A stretch of DNA of 35,757 bases from a virus, in the IMG/VR virus record IMGVR_UViG_3300030101_001076, positions 1 through 35,757 of that record, one strand, 5' to 3'. Under the pieces are notes generated by a model, which saw only the letters and a program-made list of their open reading frames with translations, was not told the DNA's origin and made no database searches. The position numbers and the translations under genes were made by a program. Positions within the stretch are counted from its first letter, which is position 1. Every line of letters begins with the position of its first letter. Shown here in pieces: positions 203 to 35,757 of the stretch.

Positions 203-634
203 TCAGTCTACGTTAAAATTTATGTTTACAGCTGTGTTCGCTTGTCTAGGAGCATCTACACGCATGCCAGCTCTATCCATCAGGTCTTTACTTGCTTCCA
301 ATCGTATGTACGAGGACTTAGCAGTCAGTAGTTCTCTCATAGTTGCCAATGCTTGTGTCGCATCCCATCCCAGAGTCATCATGCTTAACTTCTGTCTGTA
401 CTCTATAACATGTTGTTTTACAATGGTTTTGTACGCCCATGCTTTATTTCTACCTAACCTCTTGCTTGCTTCTGTTGGGTTGCAACCATCATGCAACATC
501 ATGTGTACTAATTCAGCTTGTGCATCAGTTATTTCACTCATTGGTCGTAACGTCTTTGCATTACTCTCAATCTCATTCATGGGTACTTTGCTTCTGCTGT
601 ATCGTTCTTGTTGTATTATGTCTGCTTTGGTCAT
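203..634 (-). CDS. terS: Terminase small subunit (TerS), probable
   Basis: Likely the DNA-recognition subunit of the packaging motor, which binds phage DNA and loads the large terminase. The 143-residue protein has a helix-turn-helix-like stretch around residues 48-75 (NPTEASKRLGRNKAWAYKTI). A helical segment ending in SSYIRLEASKDLMDRAGMR (about 107-125) follows, and small terminases often carry this type of C-terminal pattern. It is the first gene of the late transcript. Across the circular junction it is followed by a disordered protein and then TerL, the usual place for TerS. The ATG has only a weak ribosome-binding site (ACGGA), which sits inside a small hairpin. A long open frame on the opposite strand here is only its antisense shadow. 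Confidence 0.75.
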   Translation of the reverse strand: MTKADIIQQERYSRSKVPMNEIESNAKTLRPMSEITDAQAELVHMMLHDGCNPTEASKRLGRNKAWAYKTIVKQHVIEYRQKLSMMTLGWDATQALATMRELLTAKSSYIRLEASKDLMDRAGMRVDAPRQANTAVNINFNVD

Positions 635-662: not shown

Positions 663-692
663 ATAATACACTCAAGCCATTTGAGTTGTCAA
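663..692 (-). promoter_or_regulatory. Late promoter with an embedded 6-5-6 operator dyad
   Basis: On the minus strand a perfect -35 TTGACA (692-687) is followed by an 18-bp spacer and a -10 TATTAT (668-663). That predicts a start near 656 and a leader of about 22 bases before terS. The spacer holds a perfect dyad, ACTCAA-N5-TTGAGT (670-686), which fills all but one base between the two hexamers. A sigma-70-type host polymerase would use the promoter, in keeping with the lack of a phage RNA polymerase. The dyad position suits a repressor or a spacer-distorting activator. The bound protein is unknown. Confidence 0.7.
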
Positions 693-699
693 TGCACAG

Positions 700-6623: not shown

Positions 6624-7103
6624 CTATTGATACTTGCTGAAGTTCATCCCCCAATAAGCTATGAGGGATGCTTCGGCAAGACCATCATATGTCTTTAACT
6701 GCCAAAGATGTGAGCCTTGTGGCATCAACTCAGATGCTCTTTTACGGGTAGCATCTTTATCACTTGTGCAGTTAAGATCACTTTTCCATTTACGAGGCAC
6801 AACTTCTGTATATGGTAAACCTATTGCCACAAGCATGCCAAGATATATACCATATCCCATGCCTGTTGCAAATGTACTAGCTAAACCTTGTTGTGGCATA
6901 GCTTGTTGTTTTTCTATAAACACATGCTCTGGTTTTTGATCTGCTAAGATACTGTTAAGACTCCACATATCTAGGAATCTTTTTTGTTTCTTACCTATGT
7001 TTACTCTAAACACAGGTGCTTTCTCAGCTTGAATATACTTTGAGTCTGAATGAATGAAGCTAACTGCTCCATTTAGTCCAGGATCAATGCCACATACTAT
7101 CAT
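6624..7103 (-). CDS. RuvC-like Holliday junction resolvase
   Basis: An RNase H-fold nuclease expected to cut branched recombination or replication intermediates before packaging. It opens with MIVCGIDPGLNGA (D7), followed by VFIEKQQAM (E64) and the C-terminal TYDGLAEASLIAYWG (D140, E144). These are the usual acidic positions of RuvC-type enzymes. At 159 residues it has normal length. Its ATG follows GGAGGTTCGTA and overlaps the end of the XRE gene by 20 bases, so the two are co-transcribed. It is one of only two minus-strand genes inside the plus-strand early region. Confidence 0.88.
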   Translation of the reverse strand: MIVCGIDPGLNGAVSFIHSDSKYIQAEKAPVFRVNIGKKQKRFLDMWSLNSILADQKPEHVFIEKQQAMPQQGLASTFATGMGYGIYLGMLVAIGLPYTEVVPRKWKSDLNCTSDKDATRKRASELMPQGSHLWQLKTYDGLAEASLIAYWGMNFSKYQ

Positions 7104-7314
7104 TACGAACCTCCAGTTTTAGTTTGCAACCAAGGGCCTCAGCCCAACAATACAAATTAAAAGCTGTTGGCTTTCGATTTCCAGTTTCCCACTTAGCAAC
7201 TAGACCAGTCGCACATCCTATACGATCATCTAGTGCAGCTTGTGGTAGACCTAGCTGGTATCTTCGTTTCTTTAACTGAGTAACAAGATCGTCAGCATAT
7301 CTCTTTTCAGTCAT
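7084..7314 (-). CDS. XRE-family helix-turn-helix regulator (76 aa)
   Basis: A compact Cro/CI-type DNA-binding protein. Residues about 12-62 form the HTH_3 fold (LKKRRYQLGLPQAALDDRIG, CATGLVAKWETGNRKPTAFN, LYCWAEALG). A strand-like tail CKLKLEV follows. It is transcribed divergently from the recombination genes, from a promoter overlapping theirs, with an inverted repeat TTACAA-N14-TTGTAA between them. It is therefore a good candidate to repress both sides. It leads the two-gene unit with the resolvase. No integrase or lysogeny gene is seen, so it is more likely a timing switch than a prophage repressor. Confidence 0.85.
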   Translation of the reverse strand: MTEKRYADDLVTQLKKRRYQLGLPQAALDDRIGCATGLVAKWETGNRKPTAFNLYCWAEALGCKLKLEVRNDSMWH

Positions 7315-7328
7315 TGCACACCTCTAGC

Positions 7329-7377
7329 TTACAATAGCCAGAGGTTAGTTGTAATGTCAATAATTTTGATTTAAAAT
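7329..7377. promoter_or_regulatory. Overlapping divergent promoters with XRE operator candidate
   Basis: Plus strand: -35 TTGTAA (7349-7354), a 17-bp spacer and -10 TAAAAT (7372-7377), reading toward the recombination genes. Minus strand: perfect -35 TTGACA (7360-7355), an 18-bp spacer and -10 TATTGT (7336-7331), reading into the XRE gene. The -35 boxes abut, so one polymerase would exclude the other. The inverted repeat TTACAA (7329-7334) / TTGTAA (7349-7354) covers the minus -10 and the plus -35, an ideal place for the XRE protein to act on both. Confidence 0.65.
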
Positions 7378-17539: not shown

Positions 17540-18817
17540 CTATAACGCTACAGCCATTGCTGTTGCAAATCCTTTCGTTGAAAATGATGATGTGTCAACT
17601 GCTTCTATATTAACCCATGCATTAGTATTTCCATTATAAAATTTAAGTACATTAGATGTAGTATTGTAATATAAATCTCCTGCACTTACTGAACCTCCTG
17701 AAGGATCAGATGATAATGCACCTTGGTACACATTAGAAAATGATGTCGAACTACTTTCTGCTTGTTGTGCATAATACTTTGCAGAATATAATGTACCATC
17801 TACAGTACCAGAAGTATAAGTAGCCCAGTCTTTTGCAGAATGTTTACCAGTATTTTGACCTCTATCTATTGCACCGACTGCATAACCTTTAGCTGAATAC
17901 TCATCACCAGTATTAACATGAGTAGTTGCACTTGGGTTAGAGCCACCACCTAAAGCCCATTCTCTAGCAGAGCCAGTCACATCAGTAACACCAGTACCAC
18001 CAACAGCTTGTGCTTTAGCAGAAAAGTCTGATGTATTTGGGACAACACCATCAATTTTAGTTGCGTAGTTTTGTGCTAAAGTTGCATTGTCAGATGCGTT
18101 ATTAATTGCTGTAAGATTATTAGCTACTGTCGTAACATTACCAGCTATACCAGCAACATCACTAATAGCAGTATTTATACCAGCTACTGTATTAATATTA
18201 GTGTTATTACCAGCAACTGTCTGTACTTGTGAACTAATGCCAGCTACTGTGCTAATAGATGATGATATAGAAGCTACTGTAGCTGTATCTGATACATTTG
18301 GCCCAGCTTCTGCCACACCTGTTGTTGCATTAAATGCTAAGTATTTACCTTTTCTAATATCTTTTGTTGGTAATGTGATAGAAGCTAAATCGTCAGAATC
18401 TGGTAATGTTAATGCTCTATCATTGGCATTTTCAACTTGTTGCATTACTGCATATATTTTATCTAATTCTGTATTAAGTGATGATATATTAAATGGTCCT
18501 GATGTTGCGAAATCAGAAGTTCTAGCTATTGGAGTATCTCTAAATATTGTATAAGTAAAAGTATTATTATTTGTGTCACCTAGAGTAATACTGCCACCAG
18601 AGAAGCCATCATCAACTGCAACACCTGATACTGCAAAAGTGCCAGAGCCAGTTCCTCTGGAAAGGACAGTATCAACACCAGCTGATGTGGTTCTTATTAC
18701 TTTAATGTCATCTAATTCGAAAAAAGGAAAGTCAATTGTCAAAGGTGTAACATTGGCTGTTACAGCTTGAGTATATTGTATTCGAGCATCATTATCTGCA
18801 ATTGATATCGTAGCCAT
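17540..18817 (-). CDS. T7-type tail fibre protein
   Basis: The N-terminal about 150 residues (RIQYTQAVTANVTPLTIDFP, then DTVLSRGTGSGTF and LNTELDKIYAVMQQ) match the T7 gp17 N-terminal domain that attaches the fibre to the tail. A heptad-like repeat segment follows (about 180-260; VAGISSQVQTVAGNNTNINT), consistent with a trimeric rod. A C-terminal beta domain (VYQGALSSDPSGGSVSAGDL, then YYNTTSNVLKFYNGNTNAW) ends the protein. At 425 residues it is shorter than T7 gp17 (553), and the following small fibre genes may supply the rest. It follows the ejection proteins as in T7. Confidence 0.88.
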   Translation of the reverse strand: MATISIADNDARIQYTQAVTANVTPLTIDFPFFELDDIKVIRTTSAGVDTVLSRGTGSGTFAVSGVAVDDGFSGGSITLGDTNNNTFTYTIFRDTPIARTSDFATSGPFNISSLNTELDKIYAVMQQVENANDRALTLPDSDDLASITLPTKDIRKGKYLAFNATTGVAEAGPNVSDTATVASISSSISTVAGISSQVQTVAGNNTNINTVAGINTAISDVAGIAGNVTTVANNLTAINNASDNATLAQNYATKIDGVVPNTSDFSAKAQAVGGTGVTDVTGSAREWALGGGSNPSATTHVNTGDEYSAKGYAVGAIDRGQNTGKHSAKDWATYTSGTVDGTLYSAKYYAQQAESSSTSFSNVYQGALSSDPSGGSVSAGDLYYNTTSNVLKFYNGNTNAWVNIEAVDTSSFSTKGFATAMAVAL

Positions 18818-18852
18818 ACTTATTTATCCCTTACTTTCATACTTTTGTTAAT

Positions 18853-21800
18853 TCACAATGCATTATCACTTGGTTTAAATATTCCGTCTAATACTGGATC
18901 AAGATAGAACAAGTTACCTCCTGGCAATACAAATCTTGCACTATCAAGTGTCTTTTGATCTGCACTAAAAGTTGCTAAATCAGTTCCTACAGAACCTAAT
19001 GTTGCAATGTTACCTCCAGCTGGCCCAAATAATGCACCAGCTTTTGCACCAAAAGGCATTGGTTTTTCTGTATCACTACCTAGTAAAGGTCTTAATCCAA
19101 GTTTATAATCTGACACTTTTTCCAATGTATTGTTTACATCTGTAAACCATCCTAATGCACCACTTCTATCAACTGCATCTATAACAACATCATTGATAGT
19201 ATCTCTACTATCATCAATGCCATATTGTGCTTTTTTAATCTCATTTACAACTAAGGATAACCCAACAAGCCATGTAAGACCTTGCCAAAATGCAGCGTCT
19301 TTTTCTTGTAAACCAGCTGTAAGCAATCTAACCATAGCACCTTGTCCGTAACTTTTGAACTGAGTCATAAGAGAACCAAACTCTGTTGATGTCCATAATG
19401 CTCTGTCACCAGCTCCAGGTGTTATAATTGTTCTTTCTACAGTTTGGTTTAATGCATTTCTAAATGTTTTTCTTGCAGTAGCATCTGTCCAAAAATCTGT
19501 ATTTGGCATAAACTCACCATCTACTCTTTGGCCATGTTGTCTTATCTGTAAAGCCATTCTACTATGCATCTGCTGATCTATACCATTTGATAAGAACTTT
19601 TCTTGATCTCTTCTTGTCAGACTAGCCCAAGGTTTCATAATCTGATCTGTCATACGAAGCATTGTCGTTGTACCAGCAAACTCTTTCATTATTTGGTTCC
19701 ACCAGTTTAAACCATTGGCAATAAAGAATATACCTGTACTCTGGTTTAATCTTCTTTCCCAAGCAAACCTAGATCCAAATGTATCCCCTATATCAGCAAA
19801 TTGAGAAGCTCTTAAACCTAGTACAGCATCAGCTGCTACACCAGCTTGTTGTAGTTCTTTCTTAGTCATCTGTTTTAATATACTTCTTGATTGTTTAAAG
19901 AAGTGTGCAATACCTTTTTCGTTGGTTGCTCTTAGACCTTCCACCATCATTGGCCTTACTAAATCAGGAATACTAGATACAACTGCACCACCCATACCTA
20001 CAAGTACATTAAAAGATTTCATTGCTCTTACAAATCTACTGCTTGTTGCATGTGGGTCTTTGGAAGCTCCATATGTGCCACGAAGTCTATCTCTTAATCC
20101 TTTAATATCTCTCAAATCATTAGCTAAATTCTTTTTTAACTCTCTTCTCTTTTGTAGATTAGGTGCTTCTTTTATTAAGATTTTGTAATCATCTTCTACT
20201 GCTTTAATTAAATCAGCAATATCAATATCACCAAAAGTCCTAGTAAGCTCTATGTCCATACCCATAGTTCTTGTATGGTGACGCAACACAGATTCTATAT
20301 CATTTTCAAGAAAGTCATCAATTAGATTATCTGGTATTTCAAATGTTCTGGCTTTAGTCGATGATGCATTTGTAATCCAATCTATGTTCATAGCTTCATC
20401 AGGTAAATCATAATATGGTTTGCTTCGTGTAACCTGATCCATCATTTCATTGGCAAATGCTCTTGATGCTCTTGCATCTAATCCATATGTTCTGCCAGCC
20501 CATTGACTTACTGTAGCAATGAACTGATCTTGATTATCCATAATTTTATCTACTCTCCATATTCTAGGAAAGAATCCATCAGCAGTATTGACCATAACAC
20601 CAGCAACTCTTATCTGCTCTAGATACCCTTTAGCTTTTTGCAAGTCTTCTGTTAGCTTTGCTTTTTGTGCTGGATCTGTTGTTTTTGCTATCTTTGCTTC
20701 TAAAGATTTAATTCTTTTGCCAGCTTGTTTTTCAAATAGTTTTACTTGCTGTGCATTATCTTTAATTAAATCAAGATGCTTTTTAACTTGTGTGGCTGAT
20801 GCATTTACATAAGGTGTAGCTGAATCATTAACTGTGTCGCCATTATTTCTAACTGCTTTTGCTATTCTTGATCTAAATTCAGATTCAGTTAAATGATCTG
20901 ATTTTTTAAATACATCTTTAACTTTCTGACTTAAGACTTGATATGATCTCTGTATATCACCATCAGATGCTTGAACACCACGATAGGATAAATATTGCTC
21001 GTCTACTATATTTAAAGTTTTGACAAGACTAGGTGTGTAAGTTGTTCTAAAGGTTGTTTCTAAACTTTGATCCATCGCAAGTTTTGAATCAACTTTTTTC
21101 TGTTGCATGCCACCTAGATCAACCATCTTAGCAACTGTGTTTCTTACTAATGCATTTGGACTTTGCAATAATCTTGTTACAGGATTCCATGGTAATTTTT
21201 CTATACCAACACCAGTTTCTTTCAATGCATCCTGATCCATTGTTGCATAAGCAGTTTCTCTTGATCTTTGTGGGTTAATACCAGCACCACCTTCTTTAAA
21301 TACTTTAGTTTCTACACTTTGTATTGGACTAAAAGGTTTGCTTTTAGCAGTTGTTGTTGTCTTAGTTGTCTTGGTAGGGTCTACAGATTCAGCCCATAAA
21401 ACTGGGCCTTCATTAAAATACATTCGAGTACTGTATTTACCAAGAGCAGTAGATAGACTACCACCAATAATACCAGCAGTAAGTATAACACCAGTACTAT
21501 CAATGATATCTCTTGACTCTAGCTCTTGTGCCATAATGATTTCTTCAGGTGCAATAGCAGCTCCAGTTGTTACAAATCCACCTTTGAATCTTTCTTTAGC
21601 TTTAGCAGCTCTAAGATATCTCAATGGAGCCAGAGGTGCAAATATAGCTGGAGAAGTCAAAGAAGATAACACTTGAGGCAAAATATAATCTGTAGAAGCC
21701 AATATTTCCATGTCTTCAATATCACGTTTCATATTTTGTATTCTTTGTGCAGTTTCACCACTACTACCACTATCTTTGAATCTGTAAATGTAGCCCTCAA

Positions 21801-28587: not shown

Positions 28588-29427
28588 CTATTTCTTTAAC
28601 TCTAATTCAAACACACCCTCAGCATCAATAAGAACAGAGTTCATCTGCATTTTATTTAAAATAAAATAGCTGTCCTTATCGTTGTGATATTGCATGTTTG
28701 AAGAAACATCTTTACCAATCGCATGTGCTACTGCATCTTGATGATATGCAAAACATTCTATATGCGTGGTACCAGCTGCTCCAGAACCATTAGTTTGTGT
28801 TAAACCACCAAAAGGCATCCACATAAATCCGAGCCATCTTTTAGCAGTCATTCCTGTTGGATAAGGCAAGTCATTCTCTCCTACAAACTCTGCTCTTGAG
28901 AATTGATCTAATGCCATGAGTTGTGACCATTGCTCCCATCCAACAATAACAAATCTTCTTCCATCATCAGGAACGTCATTATTACCAAATTTTTCCATTA
29001 ACTCTAACGCCCAAGCTAATGTTATACCATTGGTTGTTTCATCGTGTGATGATGTGGTTGTTGTCATTTGAGCAAGTATCAACTCATCTGTTTTCCTACC
29101 TAGTGCATATGCACCAGACTGTTGTGCTACAGTCATCTCATCGTGATTAATTCTTAACTGATCTAGGTCATCAACCCATTCACCAGCAAAGAAATCCTCG
29201 ACAGTAACTGACACATTAGTGTGAGCAAGATTCATAGGTGCTATATTACCATGCCTTGCTTTAGTGGTAGCAAATCCCTTACCGATCTTCTGAAATGTGG
29301 TTTTGTTCTTAACACCATTACGAGTTCTTACTGTATTTCTCAGTTTAGAACCCATACGCTGATAAGCCATATGAACCCCAGCTTCAAACTCCTCGATAAA
29401 GGAAGTACTAATTGATGGTGTAGCCAT
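28588..29427 (-). CDS. Major capsid protein
   Basis: The HK97-fold shell protein, 279 residues, smaller than T7 gp10A (345). Typical blocks are EEFEAGVHMAYQRMGSKLRN, TVRTRNGVKNKTTFQKIGKG, EDFFAGEWVDDLDQLRINHD and GRKTDELILAQMTTTTSSHD, as in the phage_capsid_2 group. It lies directly after the scaffold gene. A very strong AAAGGAGATAGCG site precedes the ATG, suiting its need for high output. Confidence 0.92.
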   Translation of the reverse strand: MATPSISTSFIEEFEAGVHMAYQRMGSKLRNTVRTRNGVKNKTTFQKIGKGFATTKARHGNIAPMNLAHTNVSVTVEDFFAGEWVDDLDQLRINHDEMTVAQQSGAYALGRKTDELILAQMTTTTSSHDETTNGITLAWALELMEKFGNNDVPDDGRRFVIVGWEQWSQLMALDQFSRAEFVGENDLPYPTGMTAKRWLGFMWMPFGGLTQTNGSGAAGTTHIECFAYHQDAVAHAIGKDVSSNMQYHNDKDSYFILNKMQMNSVLIDAEGVFELELKK

Positions 29428-29574
29428 CGCTATCTCCTTTAAAAAAGTTTAAGTTACATTTTCATCAGTAGGTTATTCGCTTACCTCATCGTTATTGAAG
29501 TTAATCCATGCCTGGGCTTCTTGAGTTGGTTTACGAGCCTTCTATATATATAAAAACAAATTTATCTAAGATTG
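29428..29574 (-). promoter_or_regulatory. Leader between scaffold and capsid genes
   Basis: A 147-base noncoding gap, unusually long for this packed operon. On the minus strand it begins with TTAACA and an AT stretch TATATATATAG that could be a weak promoter for the capsid gene (the spacing is not ideal). A 22-codon open frame (29473-29538) reading ARKPTQEAQAWINFNNDEVS has no start codon. Extra transcription of capsid mRNA is the likely purpose. Confidence 0.35.
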
Positions 29575-30387
29575 TTAATTCACATTAGTTTTTTGTCTTG
29601 CTAATTGTGCAGATACTTGTCTTACCTTGGCAATATGTGCTGGATCACCACCATTCTTCCAATACTTTTCATCTGCAATCATAGCCTTTAGATCATCTTG
29701 AGTAACTGCTTCTTGAAACTCTGTAGTGTTAACCATATTAAATTTAGGCTGACCATTAAGCTCCATTAACTCCTCAAAGCATTTAACCATATTAGCACTA
29801 GCTGGAATGTTTGCAAAAGCATTATAGGCAGTTTCACTTAAATGACTATGAGCCCAAGTATCTACTCTTTCTAATCTTCTCTCTGCATGTTCGCCAAGAG
29901 CCTCACTCTCAACATTCCAATCAGGCCCACTTTGAGCAGAAACAGTATTATATTCAGCGATCAACTCATTGAACTCATTATTATCTAAACCATATTCATG
30001 TGCTTTATCCCTAAACCAGTCAACCATAGGATCATCTTCTTGAACTACAAGTTCTTCACCTTCTTTACTTTGAAGTTCTATTTTATAATCAGCTGGACTT
30101 ATTGGGGCGTTTTTTTCAGCTTCTTCATTAATTTCTTTAATAAGTTCTTCTTTAATCTCATCACGTCTAGTATGAAACTTTTGCTCCAAACTTTTGTAAC
30201 TTGAAGCCAATTGTTCTGGTGTTTCAAACTTAGTGTCGAGCCACTCTGGTCTTTCTTGAGTTTGTTCAGTTGTGACTTGATTTTCCTGTCCTTGAGCTTC
30301 TTGCTGAACTTCTTGGTTTTCTTGCTCAGTTGTTTCTGTATTGGTGCTTTCATTGCTGTTTGTAATTGTTTCTTGCTCATTACTCAT
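29575..30387 (-). CDS. Capsid scaffolding protein
   Basis: 270 residues. The N-terminus is very acidic and Gln/Glu/Thr-rich (SNEQETITNSNESTNTETTE). A helical, charged body contains PEWLDTKFETPEQLASSYKS, a motif usual in podovirus scaffolds, and the C-terminus turns basic (AHIAKVRQVSAQLARQKTNV), as expected for capsid contact. It lies just upstream of the capsid gene. It guides procapsid assembly and is then released. Confidence 0.88.
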   Translation of the reverse strand: MSNEQETITNSNESTNTETTEQENQEVQQEAQGQENQVTTEQTQERPEWLDTKFETPEQLASSYKSLEQKFHTRRDEIKEELIKEINEEAEKNAPISPADYKIELQSKEGEELVVQEDDPMVDWFRDKAHEYGLDNNEFNELIAEYNTVSAQSGPDWNVESEALGEHAERRLERVDTWAHSHLSETAYNAFANIPASANMVKCFEELMELNGQPKFNMVNTTEFQEAVTQDDLKAMIADEKYWKNGGDPAHIAKVRQVSAQLARQKTNVN

Positions 30388-35032: not shown

Positions 35033-35706
35033 CCTAGTAACAGTCTACGTCTTGCTCCACCACCTTGAGATAACAAGCCACGTCTAGCAGCTGCACTAAC
35101 ACCAGTAGTTGTACTGTCTGTTTTATTCTGTGTTTGAATTTGTGATCCAGCTGTTCCTACATTACCAGATTCAGAACCATTATCACTTCCAGCAACATCC
35201 TTTAATGCTTCGGTTGTGTATCTTTGAGTTTTTGGATCAAATGTAACTCCAGTACTTCTTCCTATTGGATCAAAAGCACTTTCACCAGAAAATCTGCCTT
35301 CCCTTACAACACCACGATATTGACCATCACGATCAAAGACTGCATTACCACCTTTACGAAGTTCACCAGCTTGTTGTCGAAAAGCCAAACTTCTTACAAA
35401 ACTCGCTGGTCTACCCAAAGGAAACATAGCCTCTCTCATGTTAAGCACAGAATTGCCACGTTTTTGTCCAGTAAAATCTTCAGTTGAAGCTCTTTCTTCT
35501 AAATCTTGAGCTAGTGATATATTACTTCTTACATCTTGTGTTGGCCTGCTAACTGGCAAAGCCATACCAGTTTCTCTCTCACTTCTTCTTGATGAGGCTT
35601 GTTGTTGGTTATAAGTATCAAAGCCCCTTTGTCTTTCTTTTTTACGTCTTTGAACTTCAGCATTTTCTACTCCTGATGCTCCAGAGGATGACGATTCACT
35701 TCCCAT
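35029..35706 (-). CDS. Hypothetical disordered protein upstream of terL (225 aa)
   Basis: Low-complexity, charged and probably mostly disordered (MGSESSSSGASGVENAEVQR; later SDNGSESGNVGTAGSQIQTQ). The C-terminus VSAAARRGLLSQGGGARRRL followed by LLG is a short basic motif seen, from memory, at the ends of other phage proteins of this position. It may aid head completion or bind the terminase. AAGGAG precedes the ATG at 35706. The first 17 codons are repeated at window positions 1-51. Confidence 0.75.
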   Translation of the reverse strand: MGSESSSSGASGVENAEVQRRKKERQRGFDTYNQQQASSRRSERETGMALPVSRPTQDVRSNISLAQDLEERASTEDFTGQKRGNSVLNMREAMFPLGRPASFVRSLAFRQQAGELRKGGNAVFDRDGQYRGVVREGRFSGESAFDPIGRSTGVTFDPKTQRYTTEALKDVAGSDNGSESGNVGTAGSQIQTQNKTDSTTTGVSAAARRGLLSQGGGARRRLLLG

Positions 35707-35757
35707 ATGATTCTCCTTAAAATACTTTTTTAGAGTAGAATTTTTTTTTGATATTTA
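35656..35757. repeat. Right copy of 102-bp terminal direct repeat
   Basis: Same 102 bases as 1-102 except position 35754 (t versus c at 99). It covers the start of the 225-residue gene, its ribosome-binding site and a nine-T run (35741-35749). Confidence 0.95.

Follow-up and report, generated by a model that had tools for sequence, protein, structure and literature searches.

A conserved element fused to the −35 box of a predicted late promoter in a family of marine phages

Organisation of the terS upstream region

The stretch of DNA analysed here (the window) is an entire IMG/VR record of 35,757 nt. As its two ends (1–104 and 35654–35757) share approximately 104 bp with one mismatch, the assembly is probably complete and circularly permuted. 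The gene for the small terminase subunit, terS (203–634, minus strand, start at 634), encodes a protein of 143 amino acids (phrog_2538, E=1.7e-6). Given the overlap of the window ends and the order of terS, then terL, in differently permuted relatives, terS was placed as the first of the late genes, heading approximately 26 kb of head, tail and lysis genes that all run in its direction.

Directly upstream of terS on the same strand lies a promoter-like sequence with a −35 hexamer TTGACA (687–692), an 18-bp spacer (669–686) and a −10 hexamer TATTAT (663–668), the start of terS being 28 nt past the −10 box. Read on the minus strand, the spacer is made up of ACTCAA (686–681), ATGGC, TTGAGT (675–670) and a single G, and thus holds a dyad ACTCAA-N5-TTGAGT with perfect arms (670–686). 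The letters and coordinates given for this TTGACA-18-TATTAT site and its dyad in the initial annotation proved to be exact. The same annotation had seen no phage RNA polymerase, which agrees with the early region, where no ORF is large enough to encode one.

The site does not stand out in the window by itself. Promoter-like sites scoring at least 11/12 were found twice, against 2.3 expected in Markov-1 sequences. Of 18-mers drawn at random from the window, 0.46% contain a dyad with 6-bp arms, and the window as a whole has 112 such dyads. On its own statistics the terS site is therefore not beyond chance; it is conservation in relatives that makes the predicted promoter certain, and the dyad gains no such certainty.

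The divergent intergenic region at 693–1276 contains many hairpins and is hypervariable, even when contigs that are approximately 95% identical are compared. Neither known RNA families nor tRNA or tmRNA genes were detected in the terS upstream region or in this intergenic region, and no other strong promoter able to serve the early genes was consistently found close to terS.

Conservation of the promoter in relatives

A total of 80 TerS and 80 TerL relatives were retrieved and 68 distinct upstream regions were aligned on the promoter, with per-position information and dyad statistics being calculated from 32 dereplicated representatives. No TerS relatives were found among bacterial genome contigs. 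Both hexamers are kept nearly everywhere among the 68 distinct relatives, at a near-fixed distance to the terS start. The −10 box is TATAAT in 35, TATACT in 23 and another sequence in 10, with TANNNT invariant in the distinct relatives. The spacing of the hexamers is 19 bp in 62 relatives, 18 bp in four (the window included), 17 bp in one and 20 bp in one. This family spacer exceeds the sigma70 optimum of 17 ± 1 bp, within which the 18 bp of the window falls.

In the 32 representatives, information is highest at T.GACA within the −35 box and at a GTG that directly precedes the box. T.GACA is invariant and the GTG invariant or nearly so, while the second base of the −35 box, usually one of those that matter most to sigma, may be T, A or G. 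Weaker conservation was seen before the −35 box, for AACAA at −25 to −19 and TTA at −14 to −12, as well as for a T located 4 bp before the −10 box.

With TTGACA/TATAAT-like hexamers at a fixed spacing conserved before terS, the site is of sigma70 type, and sequence comparison identifies it as a real, deeply conserved late promoter of a marine phage family, from which we infer its activity and its late timing. The proposal of a host-type promoter directly before the gene that heads the late genes is thus borne out by the hexamers of the 68 relatives. Boxes this close to consensus would also suit a constitutive promoter with the late switch provided by lambda Q-type antitermination through Q-type contacts in the promoter, and Q proteins are known to recognise sequences within the promoter. 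However, a terS start approximately 28 nt past the −10 box leaves no leader with a terminator before the gene, and no Q-like protein was detected among the early proteins searched, although a new one could escape such a search; this explanation is considered improbable.

The spacer dyad

The initial annotation had looked to an alignment of related upstream regions for conservation of both hexamers and of the dyad, which it took to be an operator. The hexamers are conserved but the dyad is not, an outcome that the annotation itself had named as refuting its reading. Together with its −35 box, the dyad was found only in three contigs near the window (approximately 90–97% identical over aligned stretches) and in two unrelated long contigs. 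It is already absent in L005, the TerS of which is 85% identical, as well as in L006 and every more distant relative, with both hexamers remaining in place; where the window has the dyad, L005 carries TGTTGATAGAGGGCTGTG.

Across the 32 dereplicated sequences the spacer interior is almost without information. When the best dyad of each spacer is taken, the mean is 2.56 bp, compared to 2.35 bp in shuffled sequences, and only two of the 32 spacers fall below p = 0.05, namely those of the window (0.006) and L007 (0.016). There is no second copy of the dyad in the window, where the best other matches have two mismatches and matches are fewer than expected by chance.

That a protein bound to this dyad times late transcription in the phage itself is very unlikely: its perfect 6-bp arms (p of about 0.006 for the window spacer) and its retention in the three close contigs would be in keeping with such an operator, but it is missing from the other TerS relatives, the family shows no excess of spacer dyads and the window lacks a second copy. 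The spacer dyad was rejected as a conserved operator due to its loss in relatives, the uninformative interior and the lack of excess over shuffles, and the ACTCAA/TTGAGT pair is probably a lineage-specific coincidence of sequence.

Palindromic sequences around the start site, such as CGTC-CGTA-GACG and CTC-GTA-GAG, were also considered. Their arms seem to covary, yet they are marginal against shuffles and their centres shift, and they were not retained.

An element fused to the −35 box

The conserved GTG and the −35 box together form a putative control element, detected through conservation and scans, which in the window reads TGTG-CA-TTGACA (687–698, minus strand) and has a consensus of GTGNNT[TAG]GACA, with AATGTGAATTGACA as its best form. 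A scan of all IMG/VR viral contigs with GTGNNTTGACA-N15-TRTG-TATAAT returned 41 matches, against approximately 0.6 expected by a simple estimate from base counts. All of these belong to the upstream region of this TerS family, 40 preceding its terS and one lying on a contig that ends before the gene. The full block with 19-bp-spaced boxes was found only before terS.

The two halves of the element also appear to be associated. The weaker −35 boxes TAGACA and TGGACA are always accompanied by an intact TGTGAA left half (18/18), compared to 8/50 for TTGACA; the independent clades behind this association number only about three or four. When GTGNNTNGACA was searched allowing one mismatch, no enrichment was seen over the whole window.

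Copies at head and tail genes

A 16-position profile was built from the terS sites alone and run on 17 genomes, namely 15 long relatives, the window and Hodr. This terS-only profile puts orthologous late sites at top rank in genomes of 35 kb. The element was present upstream of terS in 15 genomes. A profile site precedes the major head gene in 12 of the 17 genomes (p < 0.05), 139–168 bp before it (that of G005 lying elsewhere), and a tail-region gene in 10 of 17, 34–38 bp before it (that of G014 lying elsewhere). Several more genomes have (A/G)ATGTGAATTAAC at the tail-region gene, just above the threshold. In the window these copies are AATGTGAATTAACAAT (29571–29586, minus strand), upstream of the major head protein gene (28588–29427), and ATTGTGAATTAACAAA (18844–18859, minus strand), 35 bp upstream of a tail-region gene for 425 amino acids (17540–18817). 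For terL, portal, internal virion, the two tail tube genes and scaffold, profile sites were found in only 0–1 of the 17 genomes. Over all 17, AATGTGAAT was observed 46 times against 14.6 expected (3.2-fold), with 35 of these on the late strand.

At the head gene the element overlaps the stop codon of the preceding gene as AAT-GTG-AAT-TAA, and at the tail gene it overlaps the preceding stop codon (TGA) in another frame. As the frames differ, the element is conserved as DNA and not as protein. A −10 box 19 bp from the head and tail copies is clear only in some genomes (TAGAAT in G005, TACAAT in G009), and at the tail gene a ribosome-binding site lies between the element and the start codon; not every copy need therefore be a −35 box. 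The single promoter under a single operator that had been proposed for the whole late programme is thus too simple, since the element recurs before head and tail genes, although the idea of a shared control element stands.

The block might instead be, or include, a packaging start site (pac or cos) beside terS. Terminase sites are often near terS, and the full block with its 19-bp-spaced boxes is confined to that position, but the GTGAAT core is also present before the head, tail and xre genes and both the spacing and the −10 box are promoter-like. This alternative is regarded as highly improbable.

Three further observations concern leaders and recurrent sequences. Firstly, the relatives share a conserved leader of 120–150 nt before the major head gene (window 29425–29586, minus strand), with TACT.GAAGGCYCGTAG and later GAATAACC, which may be a structured RNA. 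Secondly, ACATAATGTGAATA followed by CC recurs on the late strand (G002:8886, G010:25587, G011:7130 and G012:5294), away from the terS, head, tail and xre sites. Thirdly, the 7-mer AAGCCAA is present in 27–39 copies per genome in G002–G015 (L218–L247), frequently within leaders or directly following stop codons; it totals 483 over the 17 genomes compared to 129 expected, with no over-representation in the window, G001 or Hodr.

The XRE protein as a candidate regulator

The initial annotation had named an XRE protein and a ParB-like protein among the possible regulators. The xre gene (7084–7314, minus strand) encodes a Cro/C2-like helix-turn-helix (HTH) protein of 76 amino acids and is present in 15/15 long relatives. 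It is the clearest transcription-factor candidate among the early genes kept in all of them; the ParB-like protein is likewise kept, at lower identity. The closest solved relatives of XRE are P22 C2 and the 434 repressor and Cro, and it weakly matches a PHROG named CII-like regulator. Its predicted fold is a four-helix HTH domain modelled with good confidence (mean pLDDT of 87.5). The xre gene overlaps one resembling a RuvC-type resolvase by eye, with no Pfam match (window 6624–7314, minus strand); the two belong to the core genes and are oriented in the late direction, opposite to the early genes around them.

The probable xre promoter in the window is TTGACA-N18-TATTGT (7331–7360, minus strand). 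In some relatives this promoter holds CAATTCACATT, which is the element in reverse. The exact sequence was found in 9/26 representative xre promoters, 43–50 bp before the start, with near matches in about two more. In one large clade it lies within the xre spacer or precedes the −35 box, frequently accompanied by another TATGTGAA, and in five genomes the xre-promoter element ranks 2–3 among some 70,000 positions. CTAG-type dyads are present in the xre spacer of several other clades, with the recognition helix of XRE nearly unchanged. Dyads of the ATACCTAG-GTAA-CTAGGTAT or ATGCCTA-GATATG-TAGGCAT type fill the xre spacer in L327, L329, L271, L294, L274, L285 and L277. A promoter whose spacer is an operator-like dyad, as predicted from sequence, is thus present in this phage family at xre and not at terS.

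XRE is a plausible regulator from its presence in 15/15 long relatives, but the element is carried by only approximately 9 to 11 of the 26 xre promoters. It is the leading candidate from sequence, with contrary evidence in other clades: as only 9/26 xre promoters hold an exact copy and CTAG dyads occur despite a near-constant recognition helix, it should be treated as a lead and not as a result.

Proposed control of late transcription

Little is known of how lytic phages that lack an RNA polymerase gene time their late genes in uncultured marine bacteria. Here, a dyad private to one lineage gives way to an element shared across the family, for which target genes, spacer length and a candidate regulator of 76 amino acids can be named.

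It is proposed that these marine podovirus-like phages, lacking an RNA polymerase of their own, would rely on the RNA polymerase and main sigma factor of the host for use of the terS promoter. A 19-bp spacer lowers the basal activity of a sigma70 promoter, and with boxes 18–20 bp apart (nearly always 19) the promoter would be weak by itself. Control would be exerted via the 12–14-bp element (AA)TGTGNNTNGACA, the right half of which is the −35 box. A sequence-specific regulator, most likely a phage-coded activator compensating for the long spacer, would bind this element and its head and tail copies and so turn on late transcription. Activation is favoured over repression due to the 19-bp spacer and the occurrence of weak −35 boxes only with the full TGTGAA half, and we infer both activation and the identity of the regulator from these features. 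The overall scheme, namely a host-sigma70 late promoter, a regulator acting on the −35-box element and its head and tail copies with XRE as leading candidate, and a coincidental dyad, is held with modest confidence as the probable one.

A more specific version is put forward tentatively. The small conserved XRE may itself be the late activator of this phage family without RNA polymerase, binding the −35-fused operator of 19-bp-spaced terminase, head and tail promoters and also controlling its own gene, which would amount to a CII-like or Mu-C-like switch in apparently lytic podovirus-like phages.

The same parts could also work with the opposite sign, with XRE as a Cro-like repressor sitting on the −35 box early in infection until it is titrated by the replicating genome and late transcription is freed. 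The element spans the whole −35 box with its centre at about −37, a position at which binding would obstruct sigma; one clade places the element within the promoter spacer of xre itself, an arrangement expected of an autorepressor; and the closest solved relatives of XRE, P22 C2 and 434 repressor/Cro, point in the same direction. However, weak −35 boxes pair with strong elements, whereas a repressor would call for the opposite pairing, and the 19-bp spacer already weakens the promoter. Repression is accordingly considered rather unlikely, and a phage-coded activator remains the preferred reading.

Comparison with known systems

The nearest named relatives by TerL are Pelagibacter phage EXVC031P Hodr (OQ414635.1) at 55% and Methylophilales phage MEP301 (MW452941.1) at 39%. 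Hodr differs from the family in having a possible 17-bp-spaced promoter without the GTG and no strong profile matches at late genes, and in MEP301 terS is located in a differently ordered cluster. MEP301 is likewise without an RNA polymerase gene (PMC8024684).

The promoter described here shares features with several known types. MerR-type promoters have spacers of 19–20 bp between good boxes, the spacer itself being a conserved dyad. The long spacer is alike, but the interior of the terS spacer is not conserved, and the conserved spacer dyad of a MerR-like spacer-operator promoter was not found at terS. The lambda CII promoters (PRE, PI and PaQ) offer the likeness of a small phage HTH protein with a site straddling the −35 box. 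CII sites are, however, direct TTGC repeats in promoters with poor boxes, and unlike a phage with lambda CII, no lysogeny genes were seen among those examined here.

The late promoters of phage Mu (Pmom, Plys, PI and PP) are activated by the C protein from a site upstream of or over the −35 element, with the boxes of Pmom being out of phase (PMC4461284). Mu C-dependent promoters have in common with the present family the use of host polymerase, the control of late genes and several late promoters with one site at or over the −35 box; here, a conserved site at the −35 box is common to the predicted terS, head and tail promoters. They differ in that Mu has non-consensus boxes and C is a Mor/C-type protein, compared to near-consensus boxes and another site sequence here. 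As none of the early proteins searched matched a Mor/C-family (C-like) activator, the promoters are not claimed to belong to the Mu C family, and the Mu late promoters are seen as the closest working analogue, which the proposed control of terS, head and tail genes would resemble.
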